Below, piece by piece: positions 6,768-50,228 of a DNA stretch of 54,877 nucleotides. This stretch comes from Candidatus Absconditabacterales bacterium (GTDB lineage Bacteria > Patescibacteriota > Gracilibacteria > Absconditabacterales > Absconditicoccaceae), in NCBI GenBank assembly GCA_937930555.1, contig CALHCH010000001.1, positions 1 to 54,877 of the forward strand, written 5' to 3'. Each line of letters starts with the position of its first letter. The first letter of the stretch is position 1. The position numbers and the translations under genes are program-made. The notes beneath the pieces were generated by a model that worked only from the letters and a program-made list of their open reading frames with translations, did no database searches and had not been told where the DNA came from.

Positions 6768-6806
6768 CAAAAAGCCCAACCATATAACGGGGTTGGGCTT
6801 TTTAGA
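6768..6806 (-). terminator. Rho-independent terminator downstream of the 6824-7177 ORF
   Basis: acaaaaagcccaaccatataacggggttgggcttttta: strong hairpin with U-tract on the minus transcript. Confidence 0.85.
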
Positions 6807-6823: not shown

Positions 6824-7177
6824 TCACTCGAGCTCATGATTGTAATTACCTTTCATATGTCCATAAAGAAATCTCATAGTGGTATGTTGTGGATTACCAT
6901 CCCAAACCTCTACATAAATCTGAGTTGCCTTAGTATCAGCTGTAGCATCAATAGGCACCTCAACTGCAAGTGAAGCTCTATATCCATCAGTAGTCTGGCA
7001 GATAGGAAATCTTTCAAACTTTCCTGGTATTTCTGTATATGTCCTATTGCGATCTTCATAAAGAATGTCCTCGTAGGGGCCGTTGAAATCTTTTAGAAAT
7101 CGTGCCTCATCAGATCTAGATGAATCGGTAACTTGTAAAACAATAGCAATGTAATTATCAATATCTGCTTTTCTCAT
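6824..7177 (-). CDS. Hypothetical protein; C-terminal boundary uncertain (TGA at 6824; next true stop TAA at 6728)
   Basis: 117-codon ORF without internal TGA, ending in TGA about 20 nt before a terminator. Strict table 25 would extend it to 6728 through the terminator. Confidence 0.6.
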   Translation of the reverse strand: MRKADIDNYIAIVLQVTDSSRSDEARFLKDFNGPYEDILYEDRNRTYTEIPGKFERFPICQTTDGYRASLAVEVPIDATADTKATQIYVEVWDGNPQHTTMRFLYGHMKGNYNHELE

Positions 7178-7211: not shown

Positions 7212-7898
7212 TTATACTCTACCAGCAAGCTTTATTACTGTTTTTAGTACATCTTTCATAATCTCTTGATTCTTCTTAGTATGAGTTATTTCATACCAAG
7301 ATTTTAGTCTACTCTCTGATTCAGCAGTGATATCTATAGCGTCCCAACTACCAGTGAATAGCTCAAGAGAGCCTCCTTTTTGCAAGAAGTTATCTCTATA
7401 TGCAAGAATCTTTCTAGGGCCAGTATTTGTTTTAACTTTAGGTAAATCTACAGTTTTTTGTCGAAACAATAAAGTAAACTCTTTGCCATTAGAGCCAATA
7501 TCTGTTACTCTATTTACTATCCCTAATAATGTGTAGCCAGCTCCAATAACTGTTCTGATATTCTTTCTAGGATCAAACTGAACTCTCTTAGTTGTCTTTG
7601 ATCTTTTCCTATAGATTTTAGAAATCTCTTTCAAAAAATTATTTAATTCTTTGCCAGTAATCTCTCCTAAATTGTCAGGGTGAATATATTCTTGGTGAGC
7701 CAATGGTGCAAGCATAGATCTATTATTCCCGCCAGGATCTCTCTTGTGTAAAATCACCTGTAATGGGTTAGATCTTTTTCTACTAGCACTCAATCCCTGA
7801 TCTGCTCTATCTTTGTATTGGATAGCAGAAAAACCCAATGGATCAATCAGGTGATTATAAATACTACCACCTGATAACTTATTTAATTTACTACTCAT
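7212..7898 (-). CDS. Hypothetical protein (228 aa)
   Basis: Continuous ORF, 18 Gly, no internal TGA, TAA stop; preceded by a sigma70-like promoter. Confidence 0.7.
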   Translation of the reverse strand: MSSKLNKLSGGSIYNHLIDPLGFSAIQYKDRADQGLSASRKRSNPLQVILHKRDPGGNNRSMLAPLAHQEYIHPDNLGEITGKELNNFLKEISKIYRKRSKTTKRVQFDPRKNIRTVIGAGYTLLGIVNRVTDIGSNGKEFTLLFRQKTVDLPKVKTNTGPRKILAYRDNFLQKGGSLELFTGSWDAIDITAESESRLKSWYEITHTKKNQEIMKDVLKTVIKLAGRV

Positions 7899-7995
7899 TT
7901 TTATCTTTTATTAAATTAGTGAATCAATATTAAAATCTACATTGTCATTGCGACATCATCTCTTGTTCCGTACTTTTAAAGAACTCAAGCAATCT

Positions 7996-8023
7996 ACTAT
8001 ATCAATATAATATATAAAGTCAA
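7996..8023 (-). promoter_or_regulatory. sigma70-like promoter for 7212-7898
   Basis: Minus strand TTGACT - 16 nt - TATAGT. Confidence 0.5.
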
Positions 8024-8091
8024 TAAAAAATCGCCCCTCCCGAGACGATCCCAACTTGTCTAATTCACCTAATTTCATCAACTCGTTTAAA

Positions 8092-11498: not shown

Positions 11499-12044
11499 CT
11501 ATTTTTCAAGTCCCTCAAATATTTTATGTCCTATACCATTCAGTAGTTTTGGACTACTCTCATCTCCATATCTCTTGGCCAGCTCTACCATTTCATTGAG
11601 CACTACCTCCTTGGGGGTGTCGAGATGGGTATATTCTACATATCATAAGATAAACAATACTCTATCCATTAGATCCATACTATCATAGCCAAATGTAGCA
11701 GCATATATATCTACCAACTTACGTACAGGATCTATACTTTCACTAAATCTTGGACCTAGCTCTTTGATATATTCAAAATCTATCTCGCTCGTCTCAAATT
11801 TTTCAAAATAGTTTTCTATAATATATACTATCTCTCTATCAAAATCACCATAGTATCCATCTTTGAATACTTGAGCAAGATCAACATTTTCTTCTAGATC
11901 ATCACCAGGATTGGCTACGATCTTCCTGATCTTGTCGATATCCGTGATAGCGGCCTGATTTTTTCCTGCCATCAAGAAAAAATACTGTTCGTAATAATAT
12001 ACGAGCAGTATTTTTCTAGCATTTATTCTAGCTTTGATATTCAT
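11499..12044 (-). CDS. nusB: Transcription antitermination protein NusB
   Basis: ARINARKILLVYYYEQYFF, SMDLMDRVLFILGYVEYTHLDTPKEVVLNEMVELAKRYGDESSPKLLNGIGHKI; TAG stop. Confidence 0.8.
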
Positions 12045-26967: not shown

Positions 26968-27005
26968 GATGAAAAAAAGCTATGCTGGATAAACAACATA
27001 GCTTT
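26968..27005 (-). terminator. Rho-independent terminator downstream of 27033-28118
   Basis: Minus transcript AAGCTATGTTGTTTATCCAGCATAGCTTTTTTT. Confidence 0.8.
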
Positions 27006-27032: not shown

Positions 27033-28118
27033 TCAAAAGAACTTAGGAAATATGCCTTCTTGACCCTCGAATAATTCGAGCCAATTTTCACTATAAAACC
27101 AATCTGGTACATATGCCTTATCAAGCTCATCTTCTTTGGTAAGTACATCATATGTCCACATACAGTGCTTTTCACTACCTCTAGGCTCTTTTTTTGGCAA
27201 TTTTCTTCCTGTACGACCCGCTATATTTTGAGGGAAATCATATGTAGGATAAAATCCTCCACTAACTCCAACATAACAACCCTTAGGATGATTGCCAAGC
27301 GCAGCAAGTATTAGCTCAACAGCATCATCAACCAGCTCTTTTGTAGAATGATAGAATCCGCGAAGAGTGAACTGAAAAGACTTACCAATAGCTTTGTAAG
27401 GATGTTTCATGTAATTCCAGCTTGAACCTGAATGGCCTTCTTTTTCTTGGCGAGCCTCGATAGGAGCATAGACAGAAGATATTGCAGTTGATCTTATAAG
27501 TGCATCAGTAGCACCATTGATAAGAGGTCCAAAAGAATTACCTCCCTGTGACGGACTTGAAGGATGATAGTCAGGAACAATATGCAGATCAAGTCCTTGA
27601 CCTCTTCTTTCTGGCCAATTGTTACTGTTTCAAAAACTAAAATTGTTCTCTGATTCTTCCTTAAATGATACGGTGTAGATACTTCTTTCAAGAATATTGC
27701 CACCATCAGACACGTCTATGGAAATCAAGACTTTGGAAGAGTCCTCTACCTTCTTCACAATATCAGCGATTGCTTGATCTGAAGAAGCATAAGTATTCTG
27801 AATAAATCGTCCATGAGAGTTATTAAAATAAAACTCATTTACCAATTCTTTTTCAGAGTCTACTTGGTATTCATCAAATGATTCTTGAAAAATACTCAGT
27901 ATGTGATCTCGAGTATCTGTCGAGCCTCTTTTATCAACTTTCTCGGCATAAGAATAAGCGATTTTTTTTAACAGATCAGCTTCATTGGTAGTGGCAATAT
28001 CACTAACCAATACAGTATTTATAGTACCATTCCAGGAATTAAATAGAAGCACAGCGATTGAAACCTCTGATGTTCTACCAATAACTATACTCTCTGAATT
28101 TTTTTGTATAATAATCAT
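27033..28118 (-). CDS. Hypothetical protein; C-terminal boundary uncertain (TGA at 27033; next true stop TAA at 26889)
   Basis: One frame from 28118 to 27033 with a single internal TGA (27630). A TGA about 27 nt upstream of a terminator ends the apparent ORF; strict table 25 extends it to 26889 through the hairpin. Confidence 0.6.
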
Positions 28119-28193
28119 CGTATATGTTTTTTGTTTTAACGAAAAATGTATTCATATTTAGTGTGTTCCCTACTTTTAAGGATCCGCAACAAA

Positions 28194-28221
28194 TATATAC
28201 TTATTATAAATATAAAGTCAA
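28194..28221 (-). promoter_or_regulatory. sigma70-like promoter for 27033-28118
   Basis: Minus strand TTGACT - 16 nt - TATATA. Confidence 0.5.
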
Positions 28222-41504: not shown

Positions 41505-42230
41505 TTATTTAACCTTTCCTCCATCCAATTCGTCTTGTCGAGCTTTGAGTTCATCCCATTTGTCATCTGCAGCCATTGCTGACTGATCAGCTCGAGTAGA
41601 TGGATCATGACTTGCGTATCTACTACCTGCGTCTGACAATATTCACTTGAGTGTGTCTATATCAGCTTTTGCTAGATCAGCATATGTAGTCATACCAGCA
41701 TCATGCAATAAACCATTAATTTTTGGACCTATTCCCTCGATTTTGGTAAAATCATCTCATGCTGCGTCTTTTTTGGCTGGTTTTTTCTTTTCAGACTTAG
41801 TCTCTTTTTTATCGTCTTTCTTTTTGGTATCGACTATATCAGCCTTTATTGAAGCTTTTGCAGCAGTAGCTGTCGATTTTTTAGCTGCTTTTGCTGCTTC
41901 GTCTTTTTCTGTAAAGATTCTCACCTCTACTGATACACCTGCAGGCAAAGTCATATTTTGTAGGTATTCAACCGTCTTTGCTCATGTTTCTACTACATCC
42001 AACAATCTGGTATAAGTAATTCTCTCATACTGATCTCTGGAGTCTTTGTATACAAAGTGAGATTTGATGACCGTATACTTCTTGTTTTTTCTAGGAAGTG
42101 GGATTGGTCATTTTACATCTGCACCTGATTTGATCAACAATCCAAGTACTTTGGTTACAGAACTCTCGAGCATCTTGAGATCAAAACTCTTGAGTTTGAT
42201 TCTAAGTTTTGGAGTAGCTTTTGATGACAT
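41505..42230 (-). CDS. rpsJ: Ribosomal protein uS10 with Lys/Ala linker and C-terminal helix-hairpin-helix domain
   Basis: [105 protein letters not shown]..., then [17 protein letters not shown]...[18 protein letters not shown]. Confidence 0.95.
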
Positions 42231-49661: not shown

Positions 49662-50228
49662 CTAGATTATTGACAATACGATGACGCAAACCACCTCTTC
49701 GTCATTAATGAAATATTGATTTCCAATTGTTTCAAGATTCTTAAGATCAAAGTAATCTAGACGATTCTCCCTATATTTTACATGATCAAGATTTATCCAT
49801 TCATAATCAATAAAAGATTTCTCAGTTATGATAATAAAAGACAGCCTCTCAAAATCATTCTCAAGGTAATTTAAAATAACCTTACCGTTTTCATCAAAAG
49901 TGAGATTAGATATCTGCATAGACTCAAAGACTATCGGTTTGGATGTTAGATTTTTAATGTCTAAAGATTCTTTAGTTAATATAACATCAGAATTTTTAAT
50001 AGGCTTATCATCTCCACTCATGACAACACGAACAGGGGTATGTCCGGTATTCCAAGATTTGTTATTAGGAAGCTTATTCGCCTCTACTGATGCTTTATTT
50101 AAGATAAGATCAACCCTCTGACCTACCAAATGATCTCCATTATAATTAGCTGAGATTAGCACCTCAAAAGATTGAGCTGAAGAGAAAAGCACAAAAAGGG
50201 AAAAAACAATTACAAGCATTTTTTTCAT
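49662..50228 (-). CDS. Hypothetical secreted protein (188 aa)
   Basis: Signal peptide MKKMLVIVFSLFVLFSSAQSF; TAG stop; promoter TTGACA-16-TATAAA and terminator bracket the gene; no TGA. Confidence 0.75.
   Translation of the reverse strand: MKKMLVIVFSLFVLFSSAQSFEVLISANYNGDHLVGQRVDLILNKASVEANKLPNNKSWNTGHTPVRVVMSGDDKPIKNSDVILTKESLDIKNLTSKPIVFESMQISNLTFDENGKVILNYLENDFERLSFIIITEKSFIDYEWINLDHVKYRENRLDYFDLKNLETIGNQYFINDEEVVCVIVLSII

Follow-up and report, generated by a model that had tools for sequence, protein, structure and literature searches.

A boxA-like leader behind the promoters of UGA-poor gene cassettes in a UGA-recoded Absconditabacterales genome

Cassettes between core genes

The window (the whole stretch of DNA analysed, 54,877 nucleotides) belongs to a genome that uses code 25, in which TGA is read as Gly; the native ORFs are dense in in-frame TGA, which makes up 37% of the Gly codons in a 251-kb sample of the genome, and TGA is therefore not a normal stop there. 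Two cassettes lie on the minus strand of the window, each with a promoter called from sequence. Cassette 1 (8023-6768) is located between secF and the native gene preceding sufS. Its sigma70-type promoter TTGACT-N16-TATAGT (7996-8023, with the -35 TTGACT at 8018-8023 and the -10 TATAGT at 7996-8001) is of the same type as that of the native rplJ gene and abuts the terminator behind secF (stem at ~8027-8052). The first gene (7212-7898) encodes P0001, a 228-aa ORFan without TGA among its 18 Gly codons, seven of which are GGC, and stops at TAA. The second gene (6824-7177) encodes P0003, 117 aa followed by a TGA, with no internal TGA and no in-frame stop between the terminal TGA and the intrinsic terminator (6768-6804, 14-bp stem, -19.9 kcal/mol). 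Cassette 2 (28221-26976) consists of one ORFan between vanW and rplJ. Its promoter TTGACT-N16-TATATA spans 28194-28221 (-35 TTGACT at 28216-28221, -10 TATATA at 28194-28199), and its gene (27033-28118) encodes P0002, a 361-aa ORFan with one internal TGA among 27 Gly codons, which ends at the TGA at 27033-27035; the intrinsic terminator (26976-27005, 12-bp stem, -14.7 kcal/mol) is met ahead of any in-frame TAA or TAG. The TGA-terminator ending that an earlier note had described as common to both cassettes is indeed present; in cassette 1, however, it is the second gene that carries it, 7212-7898 ending in TAA. In the sister genomes, cassette 1 is absent beside secF in G018 and G021, and cassette 2 is absent between vanW and rplJ in G021.

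A third cassette (contig C29, L074) was found by a scan for TGA-poor genes in the 251-kb sample. Between a promoter of the same type and a terminator, it contains an ORFan of 313 aa free of TGA and a second, small ORF; it ends in TAA. A fourth is present at the secF/sufS locus of the sister species G020, with homologues of both cassette-1 proteins at 28% (P0001) and about 33% identity, to be compared with the 75% identity of SecF between the two genomes; the match of the second-gene products is weak and depends partly on position. Outside the genus, no recognisable homologue was found for P0001, P0002, P0003 or the cassette 3 protein, and nothing significant was returned for the cassette proteins by protein family and PDB sequence searches. 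The predicted structures of P0001 and P0002 (pLDDT 41 and 36) were too poor for structure searching.

The leader motif and its boxA core

The 18-nt motif described in the earlier note is TGTTCCGTACTTTTAAAG in cassette 1, exactly at 7964-7981 as had been given, and TGTTCCCTACTTTTAAGG in cassette 2, where the sequence was correct and the position, given as 28163-28180, is shifted by one base (28164-28181). The two copies are identical at 16 of 18 positions, as claimed, and both are located downstream of the promoter on the coding strand, in the 5' leader of the gene, which bears out their proposed place at the 5' end of the transcripts. The interval of 14-15 nt to the -10 box holds for cassette 1 (14 nt from TATAGT) but not for cassette 2 (12 nt from TATATA). 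When the 1.2-Mb, 89-contig assembly was searched, just these two sites were found at 0-2 mismatches, and allowing three mismatches added two more, one within a coding sequence and one beside a tRNA. A chance likeness of two AT-rich leaders would fit such a low copy number, and 0.75% of random 18-mers of the window do have another match there of at least 16/18. However, this low rate combined with the common position relative to the promoter makes coincidence unlikely, and with the third and fourth cassettes and the class-wide enrichment reported below it is largely refuted.

The promoter that the two cassettes share, put forward in the earlier note, is present but trivial: native rplJ has TTGACT-N16-TATAnn both here and in sister genomes (TTGACT or TTGACC, N16, TATA box), and a shared promoter was therefore ruled out as the main finding. 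The distinctive part of the cassettes is the leader, the promoter itself being ordinary. On the coding strand the motif overlaps what looks like an rRNA-type boxA, a candidate NusB/S10 site. In cassette 1 this element, GTTCTTTAAAA (7974-7984, minus strand), matches the published consensus GYTCTTTAANA exactly (PMC5725501) and overlaps 7964-7981; the leader of cassette 3, GCTCTTTAACA, is likewise an exact match, and the boxA-like element of cassette 2, GATCCTTAAAA (28174-28184, minus strand), which overlaps 28164-28181, deviates at two positions. As far as sequence comparison can tell, the functional core would be this 11-nt boxA, the exact 18-mer having only two copies. A conserved RNA hairpin was considered and rejected, the folds of three leaders being unexceptional (z 0.3 to -1.6).

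Over the two strands of the 55-kb window together there are exactly two instances of the boxA core GNTCNTTAAMA (N not G), each in a cassette leader, and none is found there ahead of rplJ or EF-Tu. Over 251 kb of the genome, a perfect core follows 3 of 43 promoter-like sites, all three of them cassettes, against none in reversed leaders. Among 359 genomes of the class, the promoter followed by GNTCNTTAAMA gave 39 matches in 30 genomes versus five for the reversed pattern, so that the association with promoters, checked with the boxA core, is upheld. Thirty of the 39 loci were read: two precede rRNA, one is located at the end of a contig, and almost all of the remainder precede protein genes. 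In 31 aligned cases the boxA starts 7-24 nt past the -10 box. Relatives also carry elements resembling boxA (GTTCATTAACA, GTTCATTAAAA, GTTCTTTACCA) in their rRNA leaders and spacers, read in G001, G002, G020 and G042 (other genera and one 16S spacer), the rRNA operon of the window's genome being unassembled. In G002 and G020 (L053, L055) the rRNA genes are arranged 23S-5S-16S, not in the usual order 16S-23S-5S. Five promoter-boxA units, two of them ~1 kb apart, were found on contigs C14, C19, C33 and C41 of G017, a member of the family (L113-L116), one of them ahead of a pair of genes, one for an RRM-type RNA-binding protein.

The earlier note had proposed either one regulon or one family of mobile cassettes. 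The third cassette of the genome, the fourth in the sister species and the class-wide enrichment of promoter plus boxA support the former, and one regulon for the motif-bearing cassettes is plausible. A family of mobile units, each equipped with promoter, leader and terminator in the manner of phage morons or integron cassettes, would be in agreement with the stand-alone promoter-ORF-terminator units between core genes and with related cassettes at one locus (secF/sufS) in two species. Against this, the cassettes have no common coding sequence; neither direct nor inverted repeats of at least 9 bp flank cassettes 1 and 2, which have no 3' end in common, no attC site (RYYYAAC/GTTRRRY core pair) is found inside them or within 100 bp, and searches of phages, plasmids and viral contigs gave no match to P0001 or P0002. 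In G017, the spacers of the five promoters also look unrelated by eye. We consider a mobile family very improbable, and the motif is not the end of a mobile cassette; nor is it a promoter of a new kind.

Another explanation is that the leader is a DNA operator for a dedicated repressor that governs a small regulon of the genus. In cassette 1, the boxA and a downstream GGAAC form a 20-bp dyad, GTTC-N12-GAAC, which recurs at the same place in the G020 leader and nearly so in cassette 2, at the same distance from the -10 box. In G020 the dyad is better kept than the boxA, which has two deviations from the consensus, and TTGAC-N17-TATANT followed by the dyad matches only the cassette 1 and G020 loci in the 359 genomes. 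In contrast, cassette 3 and most of the class-wide matches keep the boxA and not the dyad. In rRNA leaders, too, a GAAC-like arm can be found downstream of a boxA. An operator thus appears improbable to us, though less so than a mobile family. A promoter-dyad arrangement was also observed on a viral contig (IMGVR_UViG_3300034375_009655, 7359-7961, L049), which has a tRNA array and a tmRNA; the promoter of the tmRNA precedes a GTTC-N12-GAAC with ATTGAAATGACG inside, similar to the cassette leader. As a phage link for the cassettes it was rejected, the two viral-contig matches of the pattern not exceeding a rough chance estimate.

UGA use and the origin of the cassette genes

The genes behind promoter and boxA are poor in in-frame TGA. 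TGA accounts for 15 of their 515 Gly codons (3%) versus 260 of 528 (49%) in their upstream neighbours, and its share is lower in the boxA gene than in the neighbour in 18 of 19 pairs (p = 7.6e-6), the percentages being approximate as the ORFs were script-called and uncurated, with a few doubtful ones (e.g. L087, L103, L108). In the window's genome, TGA makes up 40% of Gly codons in 17 genes that have the same promoter without boxA, compared with 3% in the three boxA genes. At the other end of the cassettes, the last gene finishes with TGA in four of the five cassettes of the genus (the second gene of cassette 1, the cassette 2 gene, the G020 homologue and the G018 boxA gene). This TGA is followed at once by TAG in G018 and by TAA four codons on in G020, and in cassettes 1 and 2 by no stop before the terminator. 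These terminal TGAs look like donor-style stops in a code-25 host, in which case read-through or non-stop mRNAs are predicted; where UGA directly precedes the terminator, the host ribosome should read to the end of the mRNA. Read-through at UGA has been raised as a barrier to foreign genes for Vampirococcus (PMC8080830).

Taken together, these data lead us to propose, with a probability of about 0.6, that an rRNA-type boxA behind a strong sigma70 promoter serves as an expression leader for stand-alone, mostly horizontally acquired standard-code genes. As the proteins of the window's own two cassettes and of cassette 3 have no recognisable homologues outside the genus, it is their TGA use that suggests a putative foreign origin of these three. 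Elsewhere, some boxA genes look imported by sequence: one, free of TGA, encodes a T9SS sorting domain (TIGR04183, 3.8e-12) and finds plasmid matches only in Bacteroidota, others encode DapD, and a large FGAR-AT gene is possibly also an import. A G018 boxA protein that is T9SS-like by eye was left uncounted, as no family model confirmed it. For some boxA genes, such as those encoding S-layer and small surface proteins, a native origin with high expression is possible.

The latter genes bear on a competing explanation, that promoter plus boxA marks the most highly expressed genes and that UGA avoidance reflects codon optimisation and not foreign origin. The window's EF-Tu gene has no TGA among 40 Gly codons, and some boxA genes encode S-layer or secreted proteins using GGT and GGA only. 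The cassette genes, however, fall outside the codon-usage distribution of ribosomal proteins and EF-Tu, being ordinary apart from Gly, and use GGC (the seven codons of P0001); their TGA share (1/65) is below that of the ribosomal protein and EF-Tu set (19%). Furthermore, no boxA core precedes rplJ or EF-Tu in the window, and metabolic and Bacteroidota-type genes are among those with boxA. Acquisition is thus favoured, and high expression, although unlikely, stays a live rival.

Two TGA-poor genes without boxA were also observed. One (49662-50228, minus strand) is a TGA-free (0/6 Gly) 188-aa ORF of the window with a signal-peptide-like start, a promoter at ~50300-50273 and a terminator, and may likewise have been acquired or encode a surface protein. 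The other (L065, 859-2367, on contig C10 of G000) encodes a 502-aa membrane protein, Na+/H+ antiporter-like by eye, with one TGA among 36 Gly codons, and is probably a separate acquisition.

A putative Nus role and comparison with known systems

Two components that the proposed leader would require are encoded in the window, both on the minus strand: nusB (11499-12044; PF01029, 2.1e-13; TIGR01951, 5.7e-18, below the curated cut-off) and rpsJ, for ribosomal protein S10, which is NusE (41505-42230; PF00338, 4.2e-27). The boxA of the emerging transcript would be bound by NusB-S10 and would associate with NusG and NusA on RNA polymerase. The outcome could be (i) an rRNA-like elongation complex, with gains in processivity and less pausing or intrinsic termination, or (ii) a Nus-dependent control of translation. 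Both the binding of Nus factors to the cassette leaders and the direction of the effect are presumed from sequence resemblance. In E. coli, boxA can also repress, as for suhB, and likewise for a toxin gene of C. koseri (PMC5725501), so that either direction is possible in the cassettes. Full-length Rho was not detected in 12 relatives including G000, in which only weak TIGR00767 matches were obtained and the controls were detected; the three best of these matches are AtpD (F1-ATPase beta). This suggests a loss of Rho in Absconditabacteria and Gracilibacteria, and with Rho undetected the boxA is probably not acting against it. A wider idea, that Nus/boxA was recruited as a general expression module for acquired standard-code genes in the UGA-recoded, apparently Rho-less Absconditabacteria and Gracilibacteria, is tentative, and we would give it somewhat less than an even chance.

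The boxA/Nus system is usually viewed as a regulator of rRNA. If our reading is true, boxA leaders on foreign-looking genes in apparently Rho-less bacteria would represent a Nus role unrelated to Rho, and promoter, boxA and UGA-poor ORF together would be a sequence signature by which recent acquisitions could be recognised in recoded bacteria. The UGA ends are directly relevant to the proposal that UGA recoding leads to read-through in foreign genes (PMC8080830), and UGA-ending genes would be natural tests of whether recoding hinders foreign gene expression. In a limited search of the literature on boxA with CPR terms, no paper combining the two was found, and the novelty is provisional.

The phages of Absconditabacteria and Gracilibacteria are code-11-compatible and avoid TGA (PMC10746230), and the cassettes resemble them in that their genes, too, avoid in-frame TGA in a code-25 host. 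The phages use mostly non-TGA stops, whereas the last genes of four cassettes of the genus end in TGA (one in TGA-TAG), and the neighbourhood of the cassettes showed no phage genes. Phage morons and integron cassettes are likewise autonomous accessory genes between core genes, and morons also bring a promoter and a terminator; the present cassettes differ in having the leader alone in common, with no attC-like sites, repeats or phage context. In the nut sites of phage lambda (boxA-boxB), a boxA in the early leader recruits Nus factors, as is predicted here, but no common boxB hairpin is evident in the aligned cassette leaders. The closest likeness is to the rRNA boxA, the NusB-NusE site, in the GYTCTTTAANA core placed in the leader just behind the promoter and in the presence of nusB and rpsJ. 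Leaders with boxA are already known on protein genes, namely E. coli suhB and the ParE-like toxin gene of Citrobacter koseri (PMC5725501). In contrast to the rRNA system, the boxA described here is found in a lineage that reads UGA as Gly and is apparently without Rho, its core is more degenerate (GNTCNTTAAMA, often GATC), and it precedes genes that are poor in UGA, often look foreign and have a promoter and a terminator of their own.
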